The translations under genes and the position numbers were made by a program. Source: Astropecten irregularis (Eukaryota > Echinodermata > Asteroidea > Paxillosida > Astropectinidae). Taken from it: a DNA stretch of 64,000 bases. Where the stretch lies: the NCBI GenBank assembly GCA_963971285.1, contig OZ020246.1:12569217-12633216 (forward strand), in the 5' to 3' direction. Shown in pieces: positions 13,401 to 43,486 of this stretch; position 1 is the stretch's first letter; each line of letters opens with the position of its first letter. Under the pieces are notes generated by a model. That model was not told the DNA's origin. It ran no database searches and saw only the letters and a list, made by a program, of their open reading frames with translations.

Positions 13401-13525
13401 AGTGTCTGTCTGCCTCTAGTGATCATCATGAGTCAAGTATTGCCACTCAAGTGAGTGTCTGTCTCCTTCTAGTAATCATCGTGAGTCAGGTATTGCCACT
13501 CAAGTGAATGTCTGTCTTTCTCTAG
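13401..13525. repeat. 53-bp minisatellite, about 2.4 units
   Basis: The units run GTGAGTGTCTGTCT, then CTAGTRATCATCRTGAGTCA, then GTATTGCCACTCAA. The same unit recurs throughout both HMBS-exon arrays. Most of it equals the inner part of the terminal inverted repeat of the 550/790-bp elements, so the minisatellite probably arose from an element end. Confidence 0.9.
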
Positions 13526-13812
13526 TGATCATTCATCTCATTTATTTATGTGCACTTTATAGACTCCCCACTCTTGAAAATAGAAGACGTGTTAACATGG
13601 TTAATTATTGCATTTTCTTATATAAGTATTTTTATAATCATTTCACCAACATAGATGCAAACCCTTACTGTTTATATGCTCCTGTGCGGCGGACAAGGCA
13701 TGCCGTACCTGTGATATACCATCTGACCCATCCAGTCCTTTTATGGGCCTTCTGCATTGAGAATCTACAATCCATTTTGTTTCATTCATTTTTGTCTTTC
13801 TTTATTTGACAG

Positions 13813-13996
13813 TTACAATGGACAGAAACGTTGACACGATTCAGGTTCAGCTACCTTCAAATATCAGGATAACCAGCCTGTTCACCTATGAACTGGAGAG
13901 GGCGCTAGTTGCTGACAAGCTTGATATGATCATCCATTCGTTAAAGGATTTGCCATCTGTGTTACATGAGGGAACGTCAATCTGAACCATATGCAG
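13813..13996 (+). pseudogene. HMBS exon copy 1 (stop-bearing)
   Basis: This is one exon resembling hydroxymethylbilane synthase (porphobilinogen deaminase), the cytosolic heme-pathway enzyme that joins four porphobilinogens. It has acceptor TTTGACAG and donor GTAAGG. The reading frame gives LFTYELERAL, then IIHSLKDLP, then LHEGTSI, an in-frame TGA, and TIC at the donor. Human HMBS has LFTKELEHAL, VVHSLKDLP and TIGAIC, so the TGA sits where the family has Gly. The family's Lys-Asp pair in HSLKD is kept. This copy differs from the others by K to R near the start (GACAGAAAC) and by ATATGCAG at the donor. No other HMBS exon is seen in the window. Confidence 0.82.
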
Positions 13997-14053
13997 GTAA
14001 GGATGTTTCCATATCAACATCTGCATGTATGATTTACAGCGGTTGCTAATGGG

Positions 14054-14603
14054 GTTGCCGTAGACAGTGTCTGTCTCCCTCTAGTAATCATGATGAGTCA
14101 GGTATTGCCACTCAAGTGAGTGTCTGTCTCCTTCTAGTAATCATCGTGAGTCAGGTATTGCCAACTGATCTTTACAAAAGATCTAATCTGACATCGGACT
14201 TGCTTGAAATATATCAAAATTTCGCATTATCATCACGGGTCAAAAAGTGGATGTTTTCACCAGGTCCGGACCTGATAGCCAGCGGGCAGTTTTCAACACT
14301 GGTAGCCAGGGGTCCTGGGTGCGAGACCCGAAACGGCATAATGTTTTTTTCCGACACCAAAAAATCTAATCTGACATCAGATTGGTTGCTATGTCCGTTT
14401 GTTTGTAGGCCTACTTGTTCTCCAGTGTCATAAGTTTACCTATCTGAAACCAAAATCTGAATTGGGTCGACCTAAAGTCGCTCCTGATCTATTGAGTTCA
14501 ATGACAATGCTGGGACGCCTGTCTGAAACGGGGGTTATAAATTGAGTGCCAATACCTGACTCATCATGATCACTAGAGGGAGACAGACATTGTCTATGGC
14601 AAC
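14054..14603. mobile_element. Inverted-repeat element, 550-bp class, copy 1
   Basis: Both ends carry an approximately 62-bp inverted repeat (GTTGCCATAGACA, then GTCTGTCTCCCTCTAG, then GAGTCAGGTATTGCCACTCA). The inside has one module with the palindrome GGTCCGGACC and the box-B-like GTGCGAGACCC, then a unique tail ending GTCGACCTAAAGTCGCTCC. No transposase frame is seen, so it would be non-autonomous. Twelve copies occur in the window in only two sizes, 550 and 790 bp. Confidence 0.85.
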
Positions 14604-14790
14604 CAAGTGAGTGTCTGTCTGCCTCTAGTGATCATCATGAGTCAAGTATTGCCACTCAAGTGAGTGTCTGTCTCCCTCTAGTGATCATCATGAGTCAAGT
14701 ATTGCCACTCGAGTGGATGTCTGTCTCCTTCTAGTAATCATCGTGAGTCAGGTATTGCCACTCAAGTGAATGTCTGTCTTTTTCTAGTGA
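14604..14790. repeat. 53-bp minisatellite, 3-4 units
   Basis: These are further 53-bp units directly after the right inverted repeat of the 550-bp element. The last unit decays into the HMBS intron sequence that begins CTTTCATCTCATTT. Confidence 0.85.
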
Positions 14791-15075
14791 TCTTTCATCT
14801 CATTTTATTTATGTGCACTTTATAGACTCCCCACTCTTGAAAATAGAAGACGTGTTAACATGGTTAATTATTGTATTATCTTATATAAGCATTTTCATAA
14901 TCATTTCACCAACATAGATGCAAACCCTTACTGTTTATATGCTCCTGTGCGGCGGACAAGGCATGCCGTAGCTGTGCTATACCATCTGACCCATCCAGTC
15001 CTTTAATGGGCCTTCTGCATTGAGAATCTACAATCCATTTTGTTTCATTCATTTTCCTCTTTCTTTATTTGACAG

Positions 15076-15259
15076 TTACAATGGACAAAAACGTTGACAT
15101 GATTCAGGTTCAGCTACCTTCAAATATCAGGATAACCAGCCTGTTCACCTATGAACTGGAGAGGGCGCTAGTTGCTGACAAGCTTGATATGATCATCCAT
15201 TCGTTAAAGGATTTGCCATCTGTGTTACATGAGGGAACGTCAATCTGAACCATCTGCAG
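15076..15259 (+). pseudogene. HMBS exon copy 2 (stop-bearing)
   Basis: This is a 184-bp HMBS exon with the same acceptor, donor and TGA as copy 1. It reads VDMIQ at the start (ATG for ACG), a variant shared only with copy 15. Just after the donor it joins the GGTCCGGACC-family module instead of the normal intron. Confidence 0.82.
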
Positions 15260-15675
15260 GTAAGGATGACCTGATAGCCAGCGGGCAGTTTTTAGCCAGG
15301 GGTCCCGGGTGCGAGACCCGAAATGTCATAATTTGTTTTTCCCGACACCAAAAAATCTAATCTAACATCGGACTCGCTTAAAATATATAAAAATTTAGCA
15401 TTATCATCACGGGTCAAAAAGTTGGAGTTTTCACCAGGTCCGGACCTGATAGCCAACGGGCAGTTTTCACCAGGTCATGTATATTTTTATATTTTGCTGG
15501 AAGTATTTATCAGGCTCATAGCTTTTATTGTTGCACTTGGTGCTAAGCCAATTGATCATCATAATAATGAATATCAGTAGAACTTTGTTTTGACATGTAA
15601 TGTAGTCCATTCAGTCCTTACACGTACAACTTCATTGCTTTTTTTTTTTATACAAACCAGCAACGCGCACATGTG

Positions 15676-15800
15676 GGGGCATAGGTGGCAAGTGCGTTTG
15701 GCACTCGCCTCTCACCAATGTGGCCCGGTTTCGATCCCGGCTTGGGTCATACCGTCATATGTGAGTAGAGTTGTGCAGAGTTGGATGATTAGCCCTCCCA
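15676..15800 (+). mobile_element. tRNA-derived SINE remnant
   Basis: An A-box-like stretch (GGTGGCAAGTGCG) is followed about 30 bp later by box-B-like GGTTTCGATCC, then GTCATATGTGAGTAGAG. That order (tRNA-like head, then a GTCATATGTG tail) is one I associate with SINEs of marine invertebrates. It lies in the MTF1 intron upstream of the zinc-finger exon. The stems are degraded, so it is not a tRNA gene. Confidence 0.6.
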
Positions 15801-15906
15801 AAATCATCATATGTAACACTAAACAGTCAGGGCTATCGTTTTTAGATTGAAATGCCTGTACGATCACTTTACAGTTATTATTGGTTCATTTCTATTGATT
15901 TTACAG

Positions 15907-16022
15907 GAGAGAAGCCATATTTTTGCCAAGAGGATGGATGTGATTGATCATTTAACACACAGTACAGTCTCAAGAGCCATAAGAAAGGACATGATAAACA
16001 GTCATCAACAGCAACATTGCAG
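15907..16022 (+). pseudogene. MTF1: MTF1 exon: last C2H2 zinc finger, with in-frame stop
   Basis: MTF1 is the nuclear zinc-finger factor that binds metal response elements and activates metallothionein genes. The exon follows acceptor TTTTACAG and precedes donor GTATGG. Its frame gives EKPYFCQEDGCD, TGA, SFNTQYSLKSHKKGHD: a C2H2 finger (C-x4-C-x12-H-x3-H). It closely matches the sixth finger of vertebrate MTF1 (FFCPSNGC, STQYSLKSH). The TGA sits where a Lys or Arg is expected, and CGA to TGA would be a single change. The exon has two bases before its first full codon and ends in phase 0, matching the next exon at 17045. Fingers 1-5 are not in the window: upstream lies repeat array. Either they lie beyond the left edge or this copy is truncated. 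Confidence 0.85.
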
Positions 16023-16063
16023 GTATGGTCTTACAATTCATTATGTAGTTATGTACGGTACAT

Positions 16064-16412
16064 GTGATTACACGAGCGCACAGTTTTGAATGGCGCCCTC
16101 TATTGATTAAATAAAACAAGAAACTGCGGTAGTGTCAGTAGGCCTATATCACTTTGTACATGTACACCGCCAATCATCTTTTATTGAAATCTGGGAAGCT
16201 GGAAAGCTAATCATGAGAAAAAGACCAGTGGGGAAATCCGGGAGATGTTGTCCATGCCAAATATTCTGCTATTAACTCCATGTTCCTTTCAGGAATGAAT
16301 CGCGCACCACACACCAAGCCGGAGTTGTATTGTATTTAGATCGATAAACACCACTGCAATTTCTTGTTTTAATCAATAGAGGGCCCCATTCAAAACCGTG
16401 TGCTCGGATTAC
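16064..16412. mobile_element. Inverted-repeat (MITE-like) element in MTF1 intron
   Basis: The left end GTGATTACACGAGCGCACAG and the complement of the right end (GTAATCCGAGCACACGG) begin arms of about 60 bp that share TTTTGAATGG, CCCTCTATTGATT and AAACAAGAAA. The ~230-bp centre holds no open frame. It is non-autonomous and I cannot assign a superfamily. Confidence 0.75.
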
Positions 16413-16627
16413 TGTTTAGGCTAGAAACTTGGGTAAACATTTCCAAATTATGAAACTTGGTGGAAGCAATTTACACTGCGGAAGACGGACATTGTTCCTG
16501 GTTACCACCCTTGACATAGTTTGTAAGTAGTGCAAAAGTGAAATGCTGCTTTAAAATAAGAATGTAGGTTTGCAGTGACACCATGTAATCTCTTCTGTGA
16601 GAGTGTGTGGTTCTGAGGGGAACCGTT

Positions 16628-16896
16628 GGTATTATCTCAACATTCCAAACAGTGTGCTCTGTTCGTCCTCAGGACATTGACTGGTTGTGTGACTTTGATG
16701 ATACTGAATATATAAAGCTCCAAGGATGCATTGGAGCAGAAACGGCTGGATTGGGTGGAATCCTACTGAATGAATGGTGACTCAGTGTGGGCATTGGAGC
16801 ATGACAGTAGAGAACTAGGATCATCAAAGTCTAGCAACCAGTCATTCTCCTGAGGACAAACAGAGCACACACTGGTTGGAACGTCAAGATAATACC
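16628..16896. mobile_element. Inverted-repeat element with ~78-bp arms
   Basis: The left arm begins GGTATTATCTCAACATTCC and the complement of the right end begins GGTATTATCTTGACGTTCC. Both continue through TGCTCTGTT, GTCCTCAGGA, TGACTGGTTG and GACTTTGATGAT. The centre is about 110 bp and has no coding signal. It sits in the MTF1 intron between the zinc-finger exon and the next exon. Confidence 0.75.
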
Positions 16897-17044
16897 ACCA
16901 TGCATAGCTTCAAGTCTTACTCAGCTTTAAAATATTCACAACTTAAGGTCGTCTTACAGACAAACCCATCTTTATCATGATTCCTCACCTATTTCCTGTA
17001 TAATGTAATGAATTCACATCCATGTTCATGTTTGGTTTGGATAG

Positions 17045-17161
17045 AGGGATGATTACAGCAGTGAAAGTATCGTAACTTCATCTTCAGCTAGTTTGACCTG
17101 CACATCAAGCGCAACCTGTACTTGCTCATGTGAATCCAAGAAAACACCCTCATCAACAGAG
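17045..17161 (+). pseudogene. MTF1: MTF1 exon: Ser/Thr/Cys-rich segment after the fingers
   Basis: This 117-bp exon lies between acceptor TTTGGATAG and donor GTATGC, in phase 0 at both ends. It continues the frame of 15907-16022 without adjustment. It encodes RDDYSSESIV, a Ser/Thr run, then TCTCSCESKK and PSSTE. I assign it to MTF1 from phase, order and spacing, not from a strong motif. It has no internal stop, but it belongs to a copy broken elsewhere. Confidence 0.65.
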
Positions 17162-17305
17162 GTATGCATCTAAGTATGTAAATAGTGAATAAAATAGACA
17201 TGTATGTAGGTGGTGCTTGAATCCTTAACATGCATAATTGTCACTTTATTACATCTTAGTTAGTTGTTAGTTTGTTACTACAAAAGTGTATAGTTTTTAT
17301 AATAG

Positions 17306-17806
17306 GGACCACTCAAAATGTTCAATGTTTTGGAATTTCTACTTTTCTTTTTTTTTAATAATAGGTCGGTGGGTCAAGGAAATAAATTGAACTGAACTGT
17401 TAATTGAAATTCACTTTTTACATCAAAATCCAGTATTTTCTTTTATTCTGAATAATTGCTTGAAATGCATGTACATGTACTGCAGTACACGTGCCATGGC
17501 CACACAAGCATTCCAAAAATTCAATCTTTGTCAACTTTGTTTCCAAATCAGAGTCATATCTGTGTGTTCTGGGACTGTAACTTTGCATTGGTTACATCAT
17601 ACCAACTAATGAAGACATTTTCAGGGCACCTGTGCACATTCCAGCAATTACCTCAACATAACGTTGATTAGAGATTTTTGCATGTATTCAATAATCAAAA
17701 TGCATGTAGGCTACAATGTACTAGATGAAAAATCAATTATTTTTTTTTAAAACAAATTTGGAAAAAAAGTCGAAATTTAAAAACATTGAACATTGTGAGT
17801 GGCTCC
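17306..17806. mobile_element. Imperfect inverted-repeat element, ~500 bp
   Basis: The left end GGACCACTCAAAATGTTCAA matches the complement of the right end (GGAGCCACTCACAATGTTC) over about 30 bp. The interior has T- and A-runs and no coding frame. It is probably an old MITE in an MTF1 intron. Confidence 0.5.
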
Positions 17807-17940
17807 TTAGCTAGTATTAAAGTGCTACCAAAATTGTAACCATTGTTTTGATAGACTAACACGGCTACCCACAATATATTTTTTCCAGAACATTTAAATG
17901 AACATTTTAAGATCTTAGCAAAGCTTTATCCATGAACCAG

Positions 17941-18067
17941 GTACCTATTGCAGATGGAATCATGAATGCAACAAGTCAACATGTCATCAAAGGAGACGAT
18001 GAATTTGTTCAAGTTGGGGAAGTGGTAGCACCTTCTCAATCAATAATAAGCCAACAAACAACTTCAT
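17941..18067 (+). pseudogene. MTF1: MTF1 exon: acidic segment
   Basis: This 127-bp exon ends at donor GTAAGT. Only the acceptor at 17940 (CATGAACCAG) gives the phase-0 entry needed after 17161; a second candidate at 17953 would run into a stop. It encodes VPIADGIMNA, then HVIKGDDEFVQVGEVV, and leaves one base that pairs with the next exon at 19462. The tract before this acceptor is weak, which is the main doubt. Vertebrate MTF1 also has an acidic activation region after its fingers. Confidence 0.62.
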
Positions 18068-18100
18068 GTAAGTATGGATTGATGTGCATTTGCCTTCAAT

Positions 18101-18130
18101 AACCAACTGATCTACTCAGCCCTATGTCAT
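18101..18130 (-). mobile_element. tRNA-SINE head fragment
   Basis: On the minus strand CATAGGGCTGAGTAGATCAG and then TTGGT match the start of the SINE at 53004-53077 (GGGCTGGATAGATCAG). Only the A-box part is present. It abuts the transposon-like frame at 18131-18297. Confidence 0.6.
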
Positions 18131-18297
18131 ACCGAGTGGCACAGCACTTTTTAAGTGTCTGTACCTCTTGAATGCGTGTGTCATTTGCCTGTGTTTTAGG
18201 AAGCTTCGTGATCGTAGGTTCAATGGCTTGAATGAAGTCTTCCACCTGGATCTTTTTGGGTGCTCCGGCAAAGTTCATATCCATTTCCAGTTCTTCA
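18131..18297 (-). pseudogene. Transposon-like coding fragment next to hammerhead motif
   Basis: An open minus-strand stretch reads EELEMDMNFAGAPKK, then VEDFIQAIEP, then LPKTQANDTR, and runs into the SINE head. The composition looks like real protein, but I do not recognise a domain. Its start lies within a few bases of the hammerhead motif at 18302-18345, which is encoded on the opposite strand. Hammerhead motifs are known from Penelope-like elements, so this may be a piece of one; that is inference from the neighbour only. Confidence 0.35.
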
Positions 18298-18301
18298 GTC
18301 T

Positions 18302-18345
18302 GTCTCCTGATGAGGACTAGAGCAGTCTAGTCGAAACGTTGAGAC
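18302..18345 (+). ncRNA. Hammerhead ribozyme-like motif (type I, minimal stem III)
   Basis: The conserved core CTGATGA is at 18307-18313 and GAAA at 18333-18336. Stem I pairs 18302-18306 (GTCTC) with 18341-18345 (GAGAC). Stem II pairs 18315-18320 (GACTAG) with 18327-18332 (CTAGTC), closed by a 6-base loop. After GAAA, ACGT could give only a 2-bp stem III with no loop, followed by T18340 as the expected cleavage position. Such tiny stem III forms are described for hammerheads in Penelope-like retroelements and may act as dimers. One extra G (18314) lies between the core and stem II, so activity is uncertain. Confidence 0.65.
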
Positions 18346-18894
18346 CTTATGAGAAGTGCGAACGACAATAGAAGTGCGAAAGTACGAACGATTCTTACAT
18401 AGCGTTTCAGCAAACCGATCCCCATACTAATTGTCACCATGCAAAGCCTCAAATCTTTCTTGGCACAGCATTGTTCAATACATAAACCTGCTTTTATGAT
18501 CCTTATGCAGCTGTCAATTGTAAGATGCACTATTAGACCCCTGGGAAAGGTGCGTCATTAACCACACATTCCTGACGCAGGGTAAATTGTCATTGACGCA
18601 TTTGGTCTGTAACAACATTGACGAATGGGTGCGTCAATGTCAGTCATAGACTTATGTGTAAATTGTGCTGCACACGCAGGGTTGTCTTTGCCAATGGTTT
18701 ATCCATCACTAGGACAGTAATTGTTCGTCACAATTAAGAAATGGTGCATCACATAACTGACTAAGGGTTCCGTCATGGTAGACAAATATCTGTCATAATT
18801 AGGACGCTGAGGTCCGTCATGTTATTTGAAAGCGCGGTGCACATTGAACAAGTGATGCACCATTCCCGGGGGTCATATAGTGCTTCGTACAATA

Positions 18895-19048
18895 GCGCTC
18901 CGCACTTGCGCTAAAAATAGCACCGGATCTCAGACAAACATTGCAACCATACAAACGTGGGATGGTGTGCGCGTGCATGTACACTACGTGTGTGAGACAA
19001 TGTTTGTCTGACATCCGGGGATGTTGTGACGTCATTAGTGCAGAGCGC
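18895..19048. mobile_element. MITE with GCRCTCCGCACT ends, short internally deleted copy
   Basis: The ends GCGCTCCGCACT and AGTGCAGAGCGC are inverted repeats flanked by TA on both sides (18893-18894, 19049-19050). Inner parts (CCGGATCTCAGACAAACATT, GTTTGTCTGACATCCGG) match the 265-bp family members at 21284 and 44946, in opposite orientation and shorter. The TA target site suggests a Tc1/mariner-type origin. Confidence 0.75.
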
Positions 19049-19260
19049 TATTGACAGCTACATTACTTTTCACTGACTTGGTTAGCAGCAAATTTCTACG
19101 CTAGCAGAGCAAGCAACAATGGGAGACTTTTGACTACCGGTAACCATTGTTAATCTCAAGAGGGTGCGCTTCATCAGTCTCGGGAAAGTGTGTTGAATTT
19201 GTTGTCATTGCTTTTGTGCACGAATATTCGTCATAAACACAACCGGCGTAAAATAAGTGC

Positions 19261-19371
19261 ATGGAAATGCCTGTTACATACTGTGCAGTGTTCGGTTGTG
19301 GTGGCAGGGGAGGACATGATTTCCCCAAGAACAAGCAAATGCAGAATCTGTGGAGATTGGCCATCAAATGA
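19261..19371 (+). pseudogene. THAP zinc-finger domain fragment (36 codons)
   Basis: From ATG 19261 the frame reads MEMPVTYCAVFGCGG, then HDFPKNK, then LWRLAIK and TGA. The pattern C-x4-C followed by FPK and W-x2-AI(K/R) is the first half of the THAP (C2CH) DNA-binding domain found in P-type transposases and THAP proteins. The second Cys and His of the domain and the AVPTF end are missing. It lies in the last MTF1 intron, so it is most likely a transposon remnant and not an MTF1 exon. Confidence 0.6.
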
Positions 19372-19461
19372 TTAACTCATAAGTTTGATCAATGAGCTTA
19401 AGACTTCAGTTTTCACTGATGAAACAATAATATGTCTGCATTATTTGTTGTTCTATTTTAG

Positions 19462-20582
19462 CTGCCCCAGAGCCAAAAGCACAACACGGTGGTCAGTCTG
19501 TCATCATCCATAGCATCCCCGCAGGATCAGCTGGTCAAAACCTGATCATTACCATCAATCAAGATTCTACTATGCCTACTCAAGTAGTGATAGCACCACA
19601 CCAGCTATCTCATCAGACATCAAACACTACACAAGGAACCCGTGGATATCCACTATGTACTACCTCAAATCACCCACCAGCTGAGTCATGCTTGCATCAT
19701 ACACAACCAGTCAAACCACATGTTGACTTAATATCAAAATGGCTCCAATGTAGAGAAAACAATACATTGTACTGTAGCACAAGAAAGCAATGTCAATGTT
19801 TCTGCATGTATCCCTGTTGCTCCAGTAGGTCTTACCATCTCTCAACCATGTACTCCAGCTATGCCACCTGTTGGATCAACTATTGTCCCTGTACCAGTTG
19901 TACTTACTATTGCTCCACCTGATCACACTGTCCTGCAGTTTAGTTCTGGTGTTCATGCACAGACTCAGATTCAAGTTATCACGGATGAACGCAAGGTTGG
20001 AATTCCACCGACGTCATTGTCTGTTTGTCAGCCAGGAAGCAGTTTCCCATCCACTGTAACCAGTAGACAAGATGTTTTTAAGGCAGAGCAGAGTGCTGAA
20101 AATGTTGTCATCAATACGCGTAGTGTGGATGAAAGTTGTCTAATACTTCACCAAACCGGGATGTTGATAAGTCGGCTCTTATGCTAAGCAAACAGTTTAA
20201 TGAGCATTGTGTGTCTGCTAATAATCCCGCGATTCAAGCTCCTGAAAGTCCATCATCTTGGAGCTCTAAATACCTTGAAACTAGTTCAATCAAACATTCA
20301 TGCTCATGCGATAACCAATTAAAGAATCAACAAAAGCAACGTTCAGATGATATGATTGAAAGTTGGTTAAATGATAAGAATAGCAGCATGTCTCAGTCTA
20401 CAACTCCCATGGAGTCACCAAGCATTCCCTTCAGTACCAAGGAAGGTGACAAACAACCCTGTCCACTGTGTAACTGTGTATGTCCATGTAATTGTAAAAA
20501 GGCTGAACCGTCTAGAAGTGAATTTCAAGATAGCATGTCTGTTATTTCATCATTTAGTTTGAGTGGTTTCTCTGATTTTTGA
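19462..20582 (+). pseudogene. MTF1: MTF1 last exon, copy A: C-terminal region with two frameshifts
   Basis: The acceptor TATTTTAG ends at 19461, and the first two bases complete the Ser codon left by 18067. The frame gives APEPKAQHGG, SVIIHSIPAG and NLIITINQD, then is lost between about 19720 and 19800. A second frame carries VAPVGLTISQP, AMPPVGSTIV and VITDERKVG. Near 20138 a TAATA, where copy B has TTA, adds two bases. The last frame resumes with MIESWLNDKNSS and ends CPLCNCVCPCNCKK, then GFSDF and TGA. The Cys cluster matches the one in human MTF1 (CQCQCAC) that is required for metal-induced activation. Loss of frame in both this copy and copy B argues for pseudogenes, though sequencing error in homopolymers is possible. 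Confidence 0.85.
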
Positions 20583-23216: not shown

Positions 23217-23552
23217 TGGTATCGATTCTGGCGACGGTATCGATTCTATCGGCGGTATCGATTCTATCGGCGGTATCGATTCTATCGGCGGTATCGATTC
23301 TTTTGGCGGTATCGATTCTTTCGACGGTATCGATTCTATCGGCGGTATCGATTCTATCGGCGGTATCGATTCTTTCGGCGGTATCGATTCTTTCGGCGGT
23401 ATCGATTCTTTCGGCGGTATCGATTCTTTCGGCGGTATCGATTCTTTCGGCGGTATCGATTCTTTTGGCGGTATCGATTCTTTTGGCGGTATCGATTCTA
23501 GCTATGGTATCGATTTTTAGCTTTGGTATCGATTTTTAGCTATGGTATCGAT
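23217..23552. repeat. 18-bp ATCGAT minisatellite, copy A
   Basis: About 18 units of GGTATCGATTCTWTCGGC occur. An 18-bp unit keeps any frame open, which explains the Val-Ser-Ile-Leu repeat frame across it; this is not a protein. The last units degrade to TAGCTATGGTATCGAT. Copy B (46881-47270) has more units. Confidence 0.97.
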
Positions 23553-24184
23553 TTTAGCATTGTACATTGCACATTGATTCTTGATTCTTGAGGCTACATG
23601 GGACTACATCAATGCAGGGGGCAAATTTGGTGCCGTGTACATGATGTAAGCCAGTGAATGAGGTAAACAAAAAACCTCTAATTAATTATCATTTTAATGG
23701 ATTAAAAGAGAAATTAATAATTGAAAGTCACATGTAAAATACTATACAAACGTTTGTGCCTATATCGAAGATGACATCATTATGACTTCATCAATAATTG
23801 ATCCAAGCGAGAGACCTCACGCCCCCACCCCCCATACACACACCCACACATTTCAATATAGTAGGAATCATTTTTTAGAATGAAAGTTTCATTCAACATC
23901 ACTGTTGATTTTTATGAAAGTTTCCAAAGACAATTAATTTGATTTGAAGACCCCAGCTTGTAATAGCTAGCTTGCATGGTTTCATTGGAGAGTTCATTTT
24001 AATTGTTTAGGCCAAATTTTATCAATTTTCTTCTTCCCCATCTAAGTATTTTTTTAATTATTGATGCAAAGGTAGTATCATACTTTGGTAGCATATACCG
24101 AAACCGAAATCTGCAAGGTTTACTTATAACTTGCAGGGTATAAAGATGGTGTTGGTAGAAACGTAGTGTTATAATTTTTCTGCC

Positions 24185-24420
24185 TGAACTTGTATTTATC
24201 CAGTAAAATCAGTGACTAAAATGATTTTTGATCTTTTGAAGATCAAAATTAAAAGTGGAAAAAAAAATACTGTGGCCGTTTTTCATTGTTTTTTTCAAAA
24301 GTGGGCACCGTATGTGACTGAAACTTTCACAGATGACTGTTCTTGCATCTTTTTTTATATTTTTGCCCATAAATCTGCATTTCTTTGACAAAAACCTAAG
24401 TCTGATATTACCTTTAAGTA
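24185..24420 (+). repeat. Interspersed repeat family member
   Basis: Shared features are GATCTTTTGAAGATC, TACTGTGGCC, GTGGGCACCGTATGTGACTG, GATGACTGTT, TTTTGCCCATAAATCTGCAT and CTGATATTACCTTTAA. Other copies are at 56215-56440, 57050-57290 and, on the minus strand, 60755-60960. No coding frame is shared, so it is a non-autonomous dispersed element of unknown class. Confidence 0.75.
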
Positions 24421-24645
24421 TTCGTATAATTATTGATCCTATCGTTTGTTTATTTGTGTGTGATTTATTTGTTTTATTTGTTTTATAAGTTGAATTGGCA
24501 GCATATTAGAAATAATTGGCACTGCTGATCCTATACTGCTATAATTATATTCTGAAGTAAAAACGACCTAAACGGATAGCGAACATCCGACGCATGAGGG
24601 CGCTATTGTTGTAAACACACACGCATTCATGAGATACCATCTGAC

Positions 24646-24735
24646 CATGTGTACATCAGCTGCTGCATTGAACGATTTGAGGAGATTTTTGTCTGCTTTC
24701 CTGCCCGAGTCCTAAGCAGAAGAGGCATTTTCCAG
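24646..24735 (+). other. Possible exon ending at a GTGAGT donor, duplicated
   Basis: Sequence from ATGTGTACATCAGC to GGCATTTTCCAG, followed by GTGAGT, is kept in both copies (here and 57496-57591). The 22-residue frame from the ATG stops before the donor, and copy B has two extra bases near the start. It could be a noncoding first exon. I recognise no protein. Confidence 0.25.
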
Positions 24736-25221: not shown

Positions 25222-25230
25222 AAAATGGCA

Positions 25231-31877: not shown

Positions 31878-32348
31878 CAAGTGAATGTCTGTCTGCCTCT
31901 AGTGATCATCATGAGTCAAGTATTGCCACTCAAGTGAGTGTCTGTCTCCTTCTAGTAATCATCGTGAGTCAGGTATTGCCACTCAAGTGAGTGTCTGTCT
32001 CCTTCTAGTCTTCATCGTGAGTCAGGTATTGCCACTCAAGTGAATGTCTGACTTTCTCTAGTGATTATTCATCTCATTTATTTATGTGCACTTTATAGAC
32101 TCCCCACTCTTGAAAATAGAAGACGTGTTAACATGGTTAATTATTGTATTTTCTTATATAAGCATTTTCATAATAATTTCACCAACATAGATGCAAACCC
32201 TTACTGTTTATATGCTCCTGTGCGGCGAACAAGGCATGCCGTAGCTGTGCTATACCATCTGACCCATCCAGTCCTTTTATGGGCCTTCTGCATTGAGAAT
32301 CTACAATCCATTTTGTTTCATTCATTTTTGTCTTTCTTTATTTGACAG

Positions 32349-32532
32349 TTACAATGGACAAAAACGTTGACACGATTCAGGTTCAGCTACCTTCGTATAT
32401 CAGGATAATCAGCCTGTTCACCTATGAACTGGAGAGGGCGCTAGTTGCTGACAAGCTTGATATGATCATCCATTCTTTAAAGGATTTGCCATCTGTGTTA
32501 CATGAGGGAACGTCAATCTGAACCATCTGCAG
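32349..32532 (+). pseudogene. HMBS exon copy 7
   Basis: 184 bp; type b exon (PSYIRIIS) downstream of a type-a intron (CACCAACATAGATGC). This is a recombinant unit; its counterpart one period later (copy 10) is type a. The shared TGA is present. Confidence 0.82.
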
Positions 32533-32589
32533 GTAAGGATGTTTCCATATCAACAGCTGCATGTATGATTTACAGCGGTTGCTAATGGG

Positions 32590-33379
32590 GTTGCCGTAGA
32601 CAGTGTCTGTCACCCTCTAGTGATCATGATGAGTCAGGTATTGCCACTCAAGTGAGTGTCTGTCTCCTTCTAGTAATCATCGTGAGTCAGGTATTGCCCA
32701 CTGATCTATACAAAAAATCTAATCTGACATCGGACTCGCTTGAAATATATCAAAATTTGGCATTATCATCACGGGTCAAAAAGTGGATGTTTTCACCAGG
32801 TCCGGACCTGATAGCCATCGGCCATTTTTCACCAGGTCCAGACCTGATAGCCAGGGGTCGCGGGTGCAAGACCCGAAACTTCATAATGTTTTTTCCAGAC
32901 ATTAAAAAATCTAATCTGACATCGGACTTGCTTGAAATATATCCAAATTTGGCATTATCATCACGGGTCAAAAAGTGGATGTTTTCACCAGGTCCGGACC
33001 TGATAGCCATCGGCCATTTTTCACCAGGTCCGGACCTGATAGCCAGGGGTCCCAGGTGCGAGACCCGAAACTTCATAATTTTTTCCAGACATTAAAAAAT
33101 CTAATCTGACATCGTACTTGCTTGAAATATATCCAAATTTGGCATTATCATCACGGGTCAAAAAGTGGATGTTTTCACCAGGTCCGGACCTGATAGCCAT
33201 TGGCCATTTTTCACCAGGTCCTGACCTGATAGCCAGGGGTCCCGGGTCCTAAAGTCGCTCCTGATCTATTGAGTTTAATGGCAATGCTGGGACGCCTGTC
33301 TGAAACGGGGTTATAAATTGAGTGGCAATACCTGACTCATCATGATCACTAGAGGGAGACAGACATTGTCTATGGCAAC
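32590..33379. mobile_element. Inverted-repeat element, 790-bp class, copy 6
   Basis: Three-module class; almost identical to copy 5, with small changes (CTGTCACCCTC at the left end, CATTGGCC in the third module). Confidence 0.85.
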
Positions 33380-33847
33380 CAAGTGAATGTCTGTCTGCCT
33401 CTAGTGATCATCATGAGTCAAGTATTGCCACTCAAGTGAGTGTCTGTCTCCTTCTAGTAATCATCGTGAGTCAGGTATTGCCACTCAAGTGAGTGTCTGT
33501 CTCCTTCTAGTCTTCATCGTGAGTCAGGTATTGCCACTCAAGTGAATGTCTGACTTTCTCTAGTGATTATTCATCTCATTTATTTATGTGCACTTTATAG
33601 ACTCCCCACTCTTGAAAATAGAAGACGTGTTAACATGGTTAATTATTGTATTTTCTTATATAAGCATTTTCATAATAATTTCACCAACATAGATGCAAAC
33701 CCTTACTGTTTATATGCTCCTGTGCGGCGAACAAGGCATGCCGTAGCTGTGCTATACCATCTGACCCATCCAGTCCTTTGATGGGCCTTCTGCATTGAGA
33801 ATCTACAAATTTTGTTTCATTCATTTTCCTCTTTCTTTATTTGACAG

Positions 33848-34031
33848 TTACAATGGAGAAAAACGTTGACACAATTCAGGTTCAGCTACCTTCAAATATC
33901 AGGATAACCAGCCTGTTCACCTATGAACTGGAGAGGGCACTAGTTGCTGACAAGCTTGATATGATCATCCATTCTTTAAAGGATTTGCCATCTGTGTTAC
34001 ATGAGGGAACGTCAATCTGAACCATCTGCAG
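33848..34031 (+). pseudogene. HMBS exon copy 8
   Basis: 184 bp; type a, identical in its variants to copy 5, exactly one 4363-bp period upstream. The shared TGA is present. Confidence 0.82.
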
Positions 34032-34088
34032 GTAAGGATGTTTCCATATCAACAGCTGCATGTATGATTTACAGCGGTTGCTAATGGG

Positions 34089-34638
34089 GTTGCCGTAGAC
34101 AGTGTCTGTCTCCCTCTAGTGATCATGATGAGTCAGGTATTGCCACTCAAGTGAGTGTCTTTCTCCTTCTAGAAATCATCGTGAGTCAGGTATTGCCCAC
34201 TGATCTATACAAAAGATCTAATCTGTCATCGGACTTGCTTGAAATATATCAAAATTTCGCATTATCATCACGGGTCAAAAAGTGGATGTTTTCACCAGGT
34301 CCGGACCTGATAGCCAGCCGGCAGTTTTCAACACTGGTAGCTAGGGGTCCTGGGTGCGAGACCCGAAACAACATAATGTTTTTTTCCGACACCAAAAAAT
34401 ATAATCTGACATCAGATTGGTTGCTATTTCCGTTTGTTTGTAGGCCTATTTGTTCTCCATTGTCATAAGTTTACCTATCTGCAACCAAAATCTGAATTGG
34501 GTCGACCTAAAGTCGCTCCTGATCTATTGAGTTCAATGGCAATGCTGGGACGCCTGTCTGAAACGGGGGTTATAAATTGAGTGGCAATACCTGACTCATC
34601 ATGATCACTAGAGGGAGACAGACATTGTCTATGGCAAC
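34089..34638. mobile_element. Inverted-repeat element, 550-bp class, copy 7
   Basis: Counterpart of copy 4. It differs by GCCGGCAG for GCGGGCAG and by CTGCAACC for CTGAAACC. Confidence 0.85.
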
Positions 34639-35209
34639 CAAGTGAGTGTCTGTCTGCCTCTAGTGATCATCATGAGTCAAGTATTGCCACTCAAGTGAGT
34701 GTCTGTCTCCTTCTAGTAATCATCGTGAGTCAGGTATTGCCACTCAAGTGAGTGTCTGTCTCCTAGTAATCATCATGAGTCAAGTATTGCCACTCAAGTG
34801 AGTGTCTGTCTCCTTCTAGTAATCATCGTGAGTCAGGTATTGCCACTCGAGTGAGTGTCTGTCTCCTTCTAGTAATCATCGTGAGTCAGGTATTGCCACT
34901 CAAGTGAAAGTCTGTCTTTCTCTAGTGATCATTCATCTCATTTTATGTGCACTTTATAGACTCCCCACTCTTGAAAATAGAAGACGTGTTAACATGGTTA
35001 ATTATTGTATTTTCTTATATTAGCATTTTCATAATCATTTCACCATAAAAGATGGAAACCCTTACTGTTTATATGCTCCTGTGCGGCGGACAAGGCATGC
35101 CGTAGCTGTGCTATACCATCTGACCCATCCAGTCCTTTGATGGGCCTTCTGCATTGAGAATCTACAATCCATTTTGTTTCATTTATTTTTGTCTTTCTTT
35201 ATTTGACAG

Positions 35210-35393
35210 TTACAATGGACAAAAACGTTGACACGATTCAGGTTCAGCTACCTTCGTATATCAGGATAATCAGCCTGTTCACCTATGAACTGGAGAGGGC
35301 GCTAGTTGCTGACAAGCTTGATATGATCATCCATTCTTTAAAGGATTTGCCATCTGTGTTACATGAGGGAACGTCAATCTGAACCATCTGCAG
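35210..35393 (+). pseudogene. HMBS exon copy 9
   Basis: 184 bp; type b, like copy 6 one period upstream. The shared TGA is present. Confidence 0.82.
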
Positions 35394-35450
35394 GTAAGGA
35401 TGTTTCCATATCAACAGCTGCATGTATGATTTACAGCGGTTGCTAATGGG

Positions 35451-36242
35451 GTTGCCGTAGACAGTGTCTGTCTCCCTCTAGTGATCATGATGAGTCAGGT
35501 ATTGCCACTCAAGTGAGTGTCTGTCTCCTTCTAGTAATCATCGTGAGTCAGGTATTGCCCACTGATCTATACAAAAAATCTAATCTGACATCGGACTCGC
35601 TTGAAATATATCAAAATTTGGCATTATCATCACGGGTCAAAAAGTGGATGTTTTCACCAGGTCCGGACCTGATAGCCATCGGCCATTTTTCACCAGGTCC
35701 AGACCTGATAGCCAGGGGTCGCGGGTGCAAGACCCGAAACTTCATAATGTTTTTTCCAGACATTAAAAAATCTAATCTGACATCGGACTTGCTTGAAATA
35801 TATCCAAATTTGGCATTATCATCACGGGTCAAAAAGTGGATGTTTTCACCAGGTCCGGACCTGATAGCCATCGGCCATTTTTCACCAGGTCCGGACCTGA
35901 TAGCCAGGGGTCCCAGGTGCGAGACCCGAAACTTCATAATTTTTTCCAGACATTAAAAAATCTAATCTGACATCGTACTTGCTTGAAATATATCCAAATT
36001 TGGCATTATCATCACGGGTCAAAAAGTGGATGTTTTCACAAGGTCCGGACCTGATAGCCATCGGCCATTTTTCACCAGGTCCTGACCTGATAGCCAGGGG
36101 TCCCGGGTCCTAAAGTCGCTCCTGATCTATTGAGTTTAATGGCAATGCTGGGACGCCTGTCTGAAACGGGGTTATAAATTGAGTGGCAATACCTGACTCA
36201 TCATGATCACTAGAGGGAGACAGACATTGTCTAGATGGCAAC
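35451..36242. mobile_element. Inverted-repeat element, 790-bp class, copy 8
   Basis: Three-module class with 2 extra bases at the right end (GTCTAGATGGCAAC), giving 792 bp. Confidence 0.85.
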
Positions 36243-36710
36243 CAAGTGAATGTCTGTCTGCCTCTAGTGATCATCATGAGTCAAGTATTGCCACTCAAGT
36301 GAGTGTCTGTCTCCTTCTAGTAATCATCGTGAGTCAGGTATTGCCACTCAAGTGAGTGTCTGTCTCCTTCTAGTCTTCATCGTGAGTCAGGTATTGCCAC
36401 TCAAGTGAATGTCTGACTTTCTCTAGTGATTATTCATCTCATTTATTTATGTGCACTTTATAGACTCCCCACTCTTGAAAATAGAAGACGTGTTAACATG
36501 GTTAATTATTGTATTTTCTTATATAAGCATTTTCATAATAATTTCACCAACATAGATGCAAACCCTTACTGTTTATATGCTCCTGTGCGGCGAACAAGGC
36601 ATGCCGTAGCTGTGCTATACCATCTGACCCATCCAGTCCTTTGATGGGCCTTCTGCATTGAGAATCTACAAATTTTGTTTCATTCATTTTCCTCTTTCTT
36701 TATTTGACAG

Positions 36711-36894
36711 TTACAATGGAGAAAAACGTTGACACAATTCAGGTTCAGCTACCTTCAAATATCAGGATAACCAGCCTGTTCACCTATGAACTGGAGAGGG
36801 CACTAGTTGCTGACAAGCTTGATATGATCATCCATTCTTTAAAGGATTTGCCATCTGTGTTACATGAGGGAACGTCAATCTGAACCATCTGCAG
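36711..36894 (+). pseudogene. HMBS exon copy 10
   Basis: 184 bp; type a. By position it corresponds to copy 7, which is type b, so one of the two was converted. The shared TGA is present. Confidence 0.82.
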
Positions 36895-36951
36895 GTAAGG
36901 ATGTTTCCATATCAACAGCTGCATGTATGATTTACAGCGGTTGCTAATGGG

Positions 36952-37501
36952 GTTGCCGTAGACAGTGTCTGTCTCCCTCTAGTGATCATGATGAGTCAGG
37001 TATTGCCACTCAAGTGAGTGTCTTTCTCCTTCTAGAAATCATCGTGAGTCAGGTATTGCCCACTGATCTATACAAAAGATCTAATCTGTCATCGGACTTG
37101 CTTGAAATATATCAAAATTTCGCATTATCATCACGGGTCAAAAAGTGGATGTTTTCACCAGGTCCGGACCTGATAGCCAGCGGGCAGTTTTCAACACTGG
37201 TAGCTAGGGGTCCTGGGTGCGAGACCCGAAACAACATAATGTTTTTTTCCGACACCAAAAAATATAATCTGACATCAGATTGGTTGCTATTTCCGTTTGT
37301 TTATAGGCCTATTTGTTCTCCATTGTCATAAGTTTACCTATCTGAAACCAAAATCTGAATTGGGTCGACCTAAAGTCGCTCCTGATCTATTGAGTTCAAT
37401 GGCAATGCTGGGACGCCTGTCTGAAACGGGGGTTATAAATTGAGTGGCAATACCTGACTCATCATGATCACTAGAGGGAGACAGACATTGTCTATGGCAA
37501 C
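36952..37501. mobile_element. Inverted-repeat element, 550-bp class, copy 9
   Basis: One-module class with TTTATAGGCC for TTTGTAGGCC in the unique tail. Confidence 0.85.
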
Positions 37502-38072
37502 CAAGTGAGTGTCTGTCTGCCTCTAGTGATCATCATGAGTCAAGTATTGCCACTCAAGTGAGTGTCTGTCTCCTTCTAGTAATCATCGTGAGTCAGGTAT
37601 TGCCACTCAAGTGAGTGTCTGTCTCCTAGTAATCATCATGAGTCAAGTATTGCCACTCAAGTGAGTGTCTGTCTCCCTCTAGTAATCATCGTGAGTCAGG
37701 TATTGCCACTCGAGTGAGTGTCTGTCTCCTTCTAGTAATCATCGTGAGTCAGGTATTGCCACTCAAGTGAAAGTCTGTCTTTCTCTAGTGATCATTCATC
37801 TCATTTTATGTGCACTTTATAGACTCCCCACTCTTGAAAATAGAAGACGTGTTAACATGGTTAATTATTGTATTTTCTTATATTAGCATTTTCATAATCA
37901 TTTCACCATAAAAGATGGAAACCCTTACTGTTTATATGCTCCTGTGCGGCGGACAAGGCATGCCGTAGCTGTGCTATACCATCTGACCCATCCAGTCCTT
38001 TGATGGGCCTTCTGCATTGAGAATCTACAATCCATTTTGTTTCATTCATTTTTGTCTTTCTTTATTTGACAG

Positions 38073-38256
38073 TTACAATGGACAAAAACGTTGACACGAT
38101 TCAGGTTCAGCTACCTTCGTATATCAGGATAATCAGCCTGTTCACCTATGAACTGGAGAGGGCGCTAGTTGCTGACAAGCTTGATATGATCATCCATTCT
38201 TTAAAGGATTTGCCATCTGTGTTACATGAGGGAACGTCAATCTGAACCATCTGCAG
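38073..38256 (+). pseudogene. HMBS exon copy 11
   Basis: 184 bp; type b (PSYIRIIS). The shared TGA is present. Confidence 0.82.
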
Positions 38257-38313
38257 GTAAGGATGTTTCCATATCAACAGCTGCATGTATGATTTACAGC
38301 GGTTGCTAATGGG

Positions 38314-39103
38314 GTTGCCGTAGACAGTGTCTGTCTCCCTCTAGTGATCATGATGAGTCAGGTATTGCCACTCAAGTGAGTGTCTGTCTCCTTCTAGTAA
38401 TCATCGTGAGTCAGGTATTGCCCACTGATCTATACAAAAAATCTAATCTGACATCGGACTCGCTTGAAATATATCAAAATTTGGCATTATCATCACGGGT
38501 CAAAAAGTGGATGTTTTCACCAGGTCCGGACCTGATAGCCATCGGCCATTTTTCACCAGGTCCAGACCTGATAGCCAGGGGTCGCGGGTGCAAGACCCGA
38601 AACTTCATAATGTTTTTTCCAAACATTAAAAAATCTAATCTGACATCGGACTTGCTTGAAATATATCAAAATTTGGCATTATCATCACGGGTCAAAAAGT
38701 GGATGTTTTCACCAGGTCCGGACCTGATAGCCATCGGCCATTTTTCACCAGGTCCGGACCTGATAGCCAGGGGTCCCATGTGCGAGACCCGAAACTTCAT
38801 AATTTTTTCCAGACATTAAAAAATCTAATCTGACATCGTACTTGCTTGAAATATATCCAAATTTGGCATTATCATCACGGGTCAAAAAGTGGATGTTTTC
38901 ACCAGGTCCGGACCTGATAGCCATCGGCCATTTTTCACCAGGTCCTGACCTGATAGCCAGGGGTCCCGGGTCCTAAAGTCGCTCCTGATCTATTGAGTTT
39001 AATGGCAATGCTGGGACGCCTGTCTGAAACGGGGTTATAAATTGAGTGGCAATACCTGACTCATCATGATCACTAGAGGGAGACAGACATTGTCTATGGC
39101 AAC
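38314..39103. mobile_element. Inverted-repeat element, 790-bp class, copy 10
   Basis: Three-module class with GGTCCCATGTGCGAG in the second module, shared only with copy 11 at 40525. Confidence 0.85.
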
Positions 39104-39518
39104 CAAGTGAATGTCTGTCTGCCTCTAGTGATCATCATGAGTCAAGTATTGCCACTCAAGTGAGTGTCTGTCTCCTTCTAGTCTTCATCGTGAGTCAGGT
39201 ATTGCCACTCAAGTGAATGTCTGACTTTCTCTAGTGATCATTCATCTCATTTATTTATGTGCACTTTATAGACTCCCCACTCTTGAAAATAGAAGACGTG
39301 TTAACATGGTTAATTATTGTATTTTCTTATATAAGCATTTTCATAATAATTTCACCAACATAGATGCAAACCCTTACTGTTTATATGCTCCTGTGCGGCG
39401 AACAAGGCATGCCGTAGCTGTGCTATACCATCTGACCCATCCAGTCCTTTGATGGGCCTTCTGCATTGAGAATCTACAAATTTTGTTTCATTCATTTTCC
39501 TCTTTCTTTATTTGACAG

Positions 39519-39702
39519 TTACAATGGAGAAAAACGTTGACACAATTCAGGTTCAGCTACCTTCGTATATCAGGATAACCAGCCTGTTCACCTATGAACT
39601 GGAGAGGGCGCTAGTTGCTGACAAGCTTGATATGATCATCCATTCTTTAAAGGATTTGCCATCTGTGTTACATGAGGGAACGTCAATCTGAACCATCTGC
39701 AG
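39519..39702 (+). pseudogene. HMBS exon copy 12
   Basis: 184 bp; type c, a mixture: MEKN as in type a, PSYIR as in type b, ITS as in type a. The unit is only 765 bp because the left inverted repeat at ~39759 runs straight into minisatellite units, so its element was lost by recombination between the inverted repeat and a 53-bp unit. The shared TGA is present. Confidence 0.82.
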
Positions 39703-40283
39703 GTAAGGATGTTTCCATATCAACAGCTGCATGTATGCTTTACAGCGGTTGCTAATGGGGTTGCCGTAGACAGTGTCTGTCTCCTTCTAGTAATCATCGT
39801 GAGTCAGGTATTGCCACTCAAGTGAGTGTCTGTCTCCTAGTAATCATCATGAGTCAAGTATTGCCACTCAAGTGAGTGTCTGTCTCCCTCTAGTAATCAT
39901 CGTGAGTCAGGTATTGCCACTCGAGTGAGTGTCTGTCTCCTTCTAGTAATCATCGTGAGTCAGGTATTGCCACTCAAGTGAAAGTCTGTCTTTCTCTAGT
40001 GATCATTCATCTCATTTTATGTGCACTTTATAGACTCCCCACTCTTGAAAATAGAAGACGTGTTAACATGGTTAATTATTGTATTTTCTTATATTAGCAT
40101 TTTCATAATCATTTCACCATAAAAGATGGAAACCCTTACTGTTTATATGCTCCTGTGCGGCGGACAAGGCATGCCGTAGCTGTGCTATACCATCTGACCC
40201 ATCCAGTCCTTTGATGGGCCTTCTGCATTGAGAATCTACAATCCATTTTGTTTCATTCATTTTTGTCTTTCTTTATTTGACAG

Positions 40284-40467
40284 TTACAATGGACAAAAAC
40301 GTTGACACGATTCAGGTTCAGCTACCTTCGTATATCAGGATAATCAGCCTGTTCACCTATGAACTGGAGAGGGCGCTAGTTGCTGACAAGCTTGATATGA
40401 TCATCCATTCTTTAAAGGATTTGCCATCTGTGTTACATGAGGGAACGTCAATCTGAACCATCTGCAG
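40284..40467 (+). pseudogene. HMBS exon copy 13
   Basis: 184 bp; type b. The shared TGA is present. Confidence 0.82.
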
Positions 40468-40524
40468 GTAAGGATGTTTCCATATCAACAGCTGCATGTA
40501 TGATTTACAGCGGTTGCTAATGGG

Positions 40525-41314
40525 GTTGCCGTAGACAGTGTCTGTCTCCCTCTAGTGATCATGATGAGTCAGGTATTGCCACTCAAGTGAGTGTCTGTCT
40601 CCTTCTAGTAATCATCGTGAGTCAGGTATTGCCCACTGATCTATACAAAAAATCTAATCTGACATCGGACTCGCTTGAAATATATCAAAATTTGGCATTA
40701 TCATCACGGGTCAAAAAGTGGATGTTTTCACCAGGTCCGGACCTGATAGCCATCGGCCATTTTTCACCAGGTCCAGACCTGATAGCCAGGGGTCGCGGGT
40801 GCAAGACCCGAAACTTCATAATGTTTTTTCCAGACATTAAAAAATCTAATCTGACATCGGACTTGCTTGAAATATATCAAAATTTGGCATTATCATCACG
40901 GGTCAAAAAGTGGATGTTTTCACCAGGTCCGGACCTGATAGCCATCGGCCATTTTTCACCAGGTCCGGACCTGATAGCCAGGGGTCCCATGTGCGAGACC
41001 CGAAACTTCATAATTTTTTCCAGACATTAAAAAATCTAATCTGACATCGTACTTGCTTGAAATATATCCAAATTTGGCATTATCATCACGGGTCAAAAAG
41101 TGGATGTTTTCACCAGGTCCGGACCTGATAGCCATCGGCCATTTTTCACCAGGTCCTGACCTGATAGCCAGGGGTCCCGGGTCCTAAAGTCGCTCCTGAT
41201 CTATTGAGTTTAATGGCAATGCTGGGACGCCTGTCTGAAACGGGGTTATAAATTGAGTGGCAATACCTGACTCATCATGATCACTAGAGGGAGACAGACA
41301 TTGTCTATGGCAAC
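40525..41314. mobile_element. Inverted-repeat element, 790-bp class, copy 11
   Basis: Three-module class, nearly identical to copy 10 at a distance of 2211 bp. Confidence 0.85.
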
Positions 41315-41729
41315 CAAGTGAATGTCTGTCTGCCTCTAGTGATCATCATGAGTCAAGTATTGCCACTCAAGTGAGTGTCTGTCTCCTTCTAGTCTTCATC
41401 GTGAGTCAGGTATTGCCACTCAAGTGAATGTCTAACTTTCTCTAGTGATTATTCATCTCATTTATTTATGTGCACTTTATAGACTCCCCACTCTTGAAAA
41501 TAGAAGACGTGTTAACATGGTTAATTATTGTATTTTCTTATATAAGCATTTTCATAATAATTTCACCAACATAGATGCAAACCCTTACTGTTTATATGCT
41601 CCTGTGCGGCGAACAAGGCATGCCGTAGCTGTGCTATACCATCTGACCCATCCAGTCCTTTGATGGGCCTTCTGCATTGAGAATCTACAAATTTTGTTTC
41701 ATTCATTTTCCTCTTTCTTTATTTGACAG

Positions 41730-41913
41730 TTACAATGGAGAAAAACGTTGACACAATTCAGGTTCAGCTACCTTCGTATATCAGGATAACCAGCCTGTTC
41801 ACCTATGAACTGGAGAGGGCGCTAGTTGCTGACAAGCTTGATATGATCATCCATTCTTTAAAGGATTTGCCATCTGTGTTACATGAGGGAACGTCAATCT
41901 GAACCATCTGCAG
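41730..41913 (+). pseudogene. HMBS exon copy 14
   Basis: 184 bp; type c, like copy 12 exactly 2211 bp upstream. The shared TGA is present. Confidence 0.82.
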
Positions 41914-41970
41914 GTAAGGATGTTTCCATATCAACAGCTGCATGTATGCTTTACAGCGGTTGCTAATGGG

Positions 41971-42520
41971 GTTGCCGTAGACAGTGTCTGTCTCCCTCTA
42001 GTGATCATGATGAGTCAGGTATTGCCACTCAAGTGAGTGTCTTTCTCCTTCTAGAAATCATCGTGAGTCAGGTATTGCCCACTGATCTATACAAAAGATC
42101 TAATCTGTCATCGGACTTGCTTGAAATATATCAAAATTTCGCATTATCATCACGGGTCAAAAAGTGGATGTTTTCACCAGGTCCGGACCTGATAGCCAGC
42201 GGGCAGTTTTCAACACTGGTAGCTAGGGGTCCTGGGTGCGAGACCCGAAACAACATAATGTTTTTTTCCGACACCAAAAAATATAATCTGACATCAGATT
42301 GGTTGCTATTTCCGTTTGTTTGTAGGCCTATTTGTTCTCCTTTGTCATAAGTTTACCTATCTGAAACCAAAATCTGAATTGGGTCGACCTAAAGTCGCTC
42401 CTGATCTATTGAGTTCAATGGCAATGCTGGGACGCTTGTCTGAAACGGGGGTTATAAATTGAGTGGCAATACCTGACTCATCATGATCACTAGAGGGAGA
42501 CAGACATTGTCTATGGCAAC
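41971..42520. mobile_element. Inverted-repeat element, 550-bp class, copy 12
   Basis: One-module class, the last complete element of the array. Minisatellite units follow at 42521-42865. Confidence 0.85.
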
Positions 42521-42865
42521 CAAGTGAGTGTCTGTCTCCCTCTAGTGATCATCATGAGTCAAGTATTGCCACTCAAGTGAGTGTCTGTCTCCTTCTAGTA
42601 ATCATCGTGAGTCAGGTATTGCCACTCAAGTGAGTGTCTGTCTCCTTCTAGTGATCATCCTGAGTCAAGTATTGCCACTCAAGTGAGTGTCTGTCTCCCT
42701 CTAGTAATCATCGTGAGTCAGGTATTGCCACTCGAGTGAGTGTCTGTCTCCTTCTAGTAATCATCGTGAGTCAGGTATTGCCACTCAAGTGAGTGTCTGT
42801 CTCCTTCTAGTAATCATCGTGAGTCAGGTATTGCCACTCAAGTGAATGTCTGTCTTTCTCTAGTG
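42521..42865. repeat. 53-bp minisatellite, about 6 units
   Basis: The units alternate GTGATCATCMTGAGTCAAG and GTAATCATCGTGAGTCAGG forms. The last one passes into the HMBS intron at TCATTCATCTCATTT. Confidence 0.9.
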
Positions 42866-43150
42866 ATCATTCATCTCATTTAATTATGTGCACTTTATAG
42901 ACTCCCCACTCTTGAAAATAGAAGACGTGTTAACATGGTTAATTATTGTATTTTCTTATATAAGCATTTTCATAATCATTTCACCAACATAGATGCAAAC
43001 CCTTACTGTTTATATGCTCCTGTGCGGCGGACAAGGCATGCCGTACCTGTGCTATACCATCTGACCCATCCAGTCCTTTTATGGGTCTTCTGCATTGAGA
43101 ATCTACAATCCATTTTGTTTCATTCATTTTCCTCTTTCTTTATTTGACAG

Positions 43151-43334
43151 TTACAATGGACAAAAACGTTGACATGATTCAGGTTCAGCTACCTTCAAAT
43201 ATCAGGATAACCAGCCTGTTCACCTATGAACTGGAGAGGGCGCTAGTTGCTGACAAGCTTGATATGATCATCCATTCGTTAAAGGATTTGCCATCTGTGT
43301 TACATGAGGGAACGTCAATCTGAACCATCTGCAG
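43151..43334 (+). pseudogene. HMBS exon copy 15
   Basis: 184 bp; type d with VDMIQ, as in copy 2, and like copy 2 joined to the GATAGCC module right after the donor. Copies 2 and 15 are therefore the same terminal unit found at two places, each next to MTF1 sequence. The shared TGA is present. Confidence 0.82.
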
Positions 43335-43486
43335 GTAAGGATGACCTGATAGCCAGCGGGCTGTTTTTAGCCAGGGGTCCCAGGTGCGAGACCCGAAATG
43401 TCATAATTTGTTTTTCCCGACACCAAAAAATCTAATCTGACATCGGACTCGCTTGAAATATATAAAAATTTGGCATTATCATCATG

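Follow-up and report, generated by a model that had tools for sequence, protein, structure and literature searches.

Tandem arrays of gene-derived units that make silencing RNA are represented in Drosophila by Stellate and Suppressor of Stellate. Tetris / TIR-220 of Drosophila virilis is described as a foldback transposon whose ends seeded a satellite (PMC4079207), and in Turmoil-1 of C. elegans gene fragments are reported to lie inside inverted repeats (PMC2572040). No report of a porphobilinogen deaminase exon in satellite DNA was found in the open literature, and the matches listed there for hydroxymethylbilane synthase together with repeat DNA contained nothing on such an array. Here we describe a 64,000-nt stretch of the genome of the sea star Astropecten irregularis (assembly GCA_963971285.1, contig OZ020246.1, positions 12,569,217 to 12,633,216 of the forward strand; below, the window), in which one exon of the hydroxymethylbilane synthase gene (HMBS) is present in 15 copies. 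It is likely that the array consists of an HMBS fragment, a foldback-like element and a minisatellite that grew by unequal exchange, and that it is function-less as far as its sequence reveals.

The first copy of the exon matches 15 places in the window by BLASTN, all of them on the + strand and spread from 13801 to 43343. The same 15 copies are matched by the human HMBS protein in a local tblastn (this query matches PDB chains over residues 1–361). In the copies without deletion the exon comprises 184 nt. The limits 13813–13996, which the first-pass annotation had given for copy 1 together with the assignment to HMBS, hold, and the translation of this segment matches the HMBS family PF01379 with E = 2e-10; for copy 4 the value is 1.6e-10, and both scores (41 and 41.3 bits, respectively) lie well over the gathering score of 22.1. 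The Pfam scan covered these two copies, and 14 of the 15 are near-identical in translation. Copy 4 also matches the NCBIfam model hemC (5e-11; 42.2 bits, which is under the whole-protein cut-off of 164, as would be expected for a fragment) and porphobilinogen deaminase in the PDB (3.6e-07). Judged by these scores, the homology of the exon to HMBS is far above chance. No further HMBS exons were found in the window by tblastn with the human protein, the single extra match (E = 4.4) being taken as chance. The window holds not a complete coding gene but the part of HMBS that matches human residues ~57–115, with a stop in it; the tblastn pieces start at human residues 44–46, where they run into the intron.

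The stop is a TGA that follows EGTSI in all 15 copies and stands opposite a Gly of the human protein, as had been noticed in the first reading of this DNA. In copy 4 the reading frame is MEKNVDTIQVQLPSNIRITSLFTYELERALVADKLDMIIHSLKDLPSVLHEGTSI, then TGA. From SLFT onward 23 of 41 residues are identical to those of human HMBS, and the DNA for HSLKD is intact in every copy. In the gapped alignment human TTGDKILDT lies opposite VTMDKNVDT (VTMDRNVDT in copy 1), so that human TTGDK is replaced by VTMDK or a close variant and human IGEK by IRIT or IRII, with four extra residues between the two. TTGD and IGEK, which we take to be well-kept segments of HMBS, are both altered in the copies. Because the TGA is common to all copies and these segments are altered, the HMBS piece was probably dead before its amplification; the first-pass annotation had suggested either this or a divergent end exon, and death before amplification stands as probable rather than proven.

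The copies are arranged head to tail, as expected for a tandem array, but the array is not continuous as had been assumed: its two blocks contain 2 and 13 copies and are separated by 10.7 kb that hold a gene relic (Table 1). The unit lengths, measured as the spacing of successive start codons inside the blocks, range from 765 to 1616 nt. In their best aligned stretches the 13 units compared (all except those of copies 2 and 15) are 90.67–99.86% alike, with units of unlike type aligning over only part of their length. The closest pairs (99.86, 99.71 and 99.63%) are 2211, 2863 and 4363 nt apart or lie at sums of these distances, and two types of unit interior mostly alternate. Taken together, the head-to-tail copies and their graded identity make this a higher-order tandem array with a pattern such as unequal exchange would leave. 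Units as much as 99.86% alike, together with an MTF-1-like block that occurs twice, could also arise if the assembler had multiplied a few real units or left haplotypes unmerged. Such an artefact is improbable, since among the 13 units compared none equals another along its whole length, the number of minisatellite copies and the type of insert differ between them, and the two MTF-1-like blocks are ~4% apart and differ by indels as well.

Each unit is built in the order 53-bp minisatellite, intron-like flank of up to 274 bp, exon, flank of ~60 bp, inverted end TL, one copy of the minisatellite, interior and inverted end TR. The minisatellite or a piece of it is found upstream of 14 of the 15 exons (the exception is copy 3). 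The ~60-bp flank follows 13 of them, being absent after copies 2 and 15, and the TL–TR pair follows 12, being absent after copies 2, 12 and 15. TL and TR are inverted ends of 61 bp, and in one of the 12 pairs TR was matched over 53 of its 61 bases. The minisatellite nearly equals positions 14–61 of TL plus five bases and varies in copy number from unit to unit. Its pattern gave 0 matches in viral and genome contig collections, which hold no animal genomes and possibly exclude near relatives. The interior either consists of three 192-bp repeats or is formed by ~360 bp partly resembling this repeat. The longest inverted pairs are 118 nt with 85% identity among the best 25 of 953 pairs. The transposon-like ends and the minisatellite, both proposed at first reading, are thus real, and the combination of inverted ends with related tandem repeats fits a foldback-type element. 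The 192-bp repeat of the array (28349–28884) has relatives beyond it that are 85–87% alike (51133–51535). It contains a motif presumably akin to a tRNA B box and may stem from a short interspersed element; Rfam gave no match at this repeat.

The 61-bp inverted ends after 12 of the 15 exons and the near-identical minisatellite before 14 of them might also mean that the HMBS fragment is the cargo of a foldback or terminal-inverted-repeat transposon, and that the array was produced by repeated or nested insertions and not by exchange. Foldback elements with tandem repeats within their ends are known (PMC4079207). We regard this explanation as unlikely: the exon sits outside the TL–TR pair, with TR and the minisatellite on its left and TL on its right, the units all point the same way, head to tail, and show the graded identities that exchange yields, and no target-site duplication was seen at 11 of the 12 pairs, though the right flank is itself minisatellite.

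The splice-like borders reported in the first-pass annotation are present throughout, the acceptor TTTGACAG and the donor CAGGTAAG (core CAG/GTAAG) being found in 15 of 15 copies; copy 1 reads ATGCAG instead of CTGCAG there. It had further been claimed that the persistence of the acceptor, donor and HSLKD is unusual for junk, and this gains no support from the comparison with the flanks. When the 15 exon regions are aligned, 10 of 184 exon columns are variable. The corresponding count for the upstream flank is 34 of 243, or 20 of 217 after setting aside the first 26 columns, 14 of which vary solely on account of copy 3, whose sequence passes a breakpoint in this part. For the downstream flank it is 3 of 51, with copies 2 and 15 left out (their flank is missing) and 19 further columns, empty in nearly all rows, excluded. 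For both flanks together 23 of 268 columns are variable. Fisher's test of the exon gives p = 0.18 against the upstream flank, 0.27 against both flanks and 1.0 against the downstream flank. Among the splice-motif columns 3 of 32 are variable, with 2.3 expected at the overall rate. Of the variable columns ahead of the stop, 5 alter the amino acid and 4 are silent (p = 0.25 against a neutral share of 0.74, which is an assumption). Indels stand outside these column tests, and within the exon they occur in copy 3 only. There is no detectable excess conservation of the exon or of its splice sites. The exon and splice columns vary about as often as the flanks, and the copies are simply closely related to one another.

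These results bear on the possibility that the array acts on heme synthesis, whether through small or antisense RNA, as decoys for HMBS, or as poison exons in transcripts that cross it. The acceptor and the donor core retained in all copies would suit such a role, and Stellate and Suppressor of Stellate provide a precedent for tandem gene-derived arrays with silencing RNA. The absence of detectable excess conservation in exon and splice columns speaks against it, and so does the single orientation of all 15 exons, because of which no exon hairpin is to be expected. We consider a regulatory role of this kind highly improbable.

Several observations weigh against our reading of the array as a dead, function-less composite. 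The rate of variable columns in the exon (5.4%) is lower than that in the upstream flank (9.2%) and not clearly lower than that in the downstream flank (5.9%). The tests for constraint are low in power, with 9 variable columns ahead of the stop, and are weakened by the shared ancestry of the copies, which may also exchange sequence. The frames of 14 of the 15 copies are open up to the TGA, the exception being copy 3. Of the 22 residues ahead of SLFT, aligned without gaps, 5 are identical to the human ones (shuffle p = 0.047), and this marginal match makes the true exon start uncertain. Finally, no target-site duplication was seen, the 12-nt flanks being unmatched at 11 of the 12 TL–TR pairs (the right end of one is incomplete) and the right flank being itself minisatellite, so that the transposon label rests on the inverted ends.

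The following origin is the most likely one. An HMBS fragment of ~520 bp (one exon between two intron-like flanks) would have turned into a pseudogene piece and come to adjoin the 53-bp minisatellite and a transposon-like element, to whose 61-bp inverted ends the minisatellite is related. This composite would then have grown in tandem by unequal exchange to 15 copies, with the minisatellite and other repeats serving as places of mispairing. The growth presumably took place beside an MTF-1-like gene relic. The array appears to be a young gene-fragment satellite within a repeat-rich region, with no function apparent from its sequence.

Table 1. Positions of the exon copies, array blocks and neighbouring features in the window.
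Feature	Position	Strand	Basis
Left block with two units; 192-bp-repeat-like sequence at its end, before an MTF-1-like exon	13398–15470	+	
Main array, 13 exon copies, higher-order pattern	26158–43490	+	
HMBS exon copy 1, TGA 13983–13985	13813–13996	+	BLASTN, PF01379
HMBS exon copy 2	15076–15259	+	BLASTN
HMBS exon copy 3, with two deletions (14 and 5 nt) that break the frame	26370–26534	+	BLASTN, tblastn, alignment
HMBS exon copy 4	27986–28169	+	BLASTN, PF01379, hemC, PDB match
HMBS exon copy 5	29485–29668	+	BLASTN
HMBS exon copy 6	30847–31030	+	BLASTN
HMBS exon copy 7	32349–32532	+	BLASTN
HMBS exon copy 8	33848–34031	+	BLASTN
HMBS exon copy 9	35210–35393	+	BLASTN
HMBS exon copy 10	36711–36894	+	BLASTN
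HMBS exon copy 11	38073–38256	+	BLASTN
HMBS exon copy 12	39519–39702	+	BLASTN
HMBS exon copy 13	40284–40467	+	BLASTN
HMBS exon copy 14	41730–41913	+	BLASTN
HMBS exon copy 15	43151–43334	+	BLASTN
Longest run of 53-bp minisatellite, 10.3 copies	27147–27693	+	
Transposon-like element, example: TL 28226–28286, 192-bp repeats, TR 28957–29017	28226–29017		
Copy A of the MTF-1-like gene relic: TGA in the zinc-finger exon, frame break in the last exon	15905–20582	+	
MTF-1-like last-exon fragment, copy B, starting mid-exon at array border	43487–44244	+	
195-bp satellite, left block, 68.2 copies, starting at or before window start	1–13400	+	
195-bp satellite, right block, extending to window end	61768–64000	+	

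The exon downstream of the two left units is a C2H2 finger. We take this zinc-finger exon and the last exon with CPLCNCVCPCNCKK to be those of MTF-1; no search gave that name, and Pfam gave nothing for the MTF-1-like last exon. The frames of copies A and B are broken at different places, and each copy reads on where the other breaks. The segment 19828–23562 is repeated at 43487–47243 with 96.0% identity and the segment 14595–15415 at 42670–43490 with 96.5%, so that the order of array, MTF-1-like piece and GGTATCGATTCT minisatellite occurs twice. The latter, with a period of 18 bp, lies at the corresponding place in both duplicated blocks (23218–23562 and 46883–47270). This repeated order is consistent with a larger duplication whose second copy later lost the counterpart of 15416–19827 by deletion. 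A reading of TGA as a sense codon was rejected, because no single meaning fits (the human enzyme has Gly at the HMBS site, whereas other fingers have Lys or Arg at the site of the TGA in the zinc-finger exon) and the neighbouring exons are also frame-broken.

The neighbourhood as a whole looks like a gene graveyard flanked by satellite blocks; a pericentromeric location would be no more than a guess. Retroelement-like frames, presumably Ty3-like, occupy 48347–50280 on the – strand, one of them matching the integrase core family PF00665 (E = 6.1e-12), and are adjoined by a 14-bp minisatellite at 50237–51134. A 1.2-kb repeat is present twice with 92.8% identity (23764–24967 and 56609–57822). An inverted pair of ~354 bp with 95.2% identity (58485–58837 and 60071–60423) possibly represents the ends of another element. 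Rfam, applied to 13401–61800, gave a single tRNA match at 53005–53077 on the – strand (32 bits, cut-off 29), and ARAGORN predicted no tRNA, at that match included.

In this locus an exon of the host, an inverted-repeat element and a minisatellite have clearly been joined into a single amplifying unit, which should be useful for understanding how gene fragments can turn into satellite DNA. The locus also calls for caution, since splice sites that look intact are, in a recent array, by themselves no sign of selection. Should transcripts or small RNAs of the locus be found, it would offer a test of gene-fragment arrays in a regulatory role. In being a tandem array of gene-derived units it resembles Stellate and Suppressor of Stellate, and is here known from sequence alone. 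As in Tetris, inverted ends with related tandem repeats underlie a satellite-like array; unlike in Tetris, each unit here includes a piece of a host gene. With Turmoil-1 it has in common a fragment of a host protein-coding gene tied to an inverted-repeat element in an animal, whereas the fragments of Turmoil-1 lie within the inverted repeats and the HMBS exon lies outside the TL–TR pair, in a tandem array.

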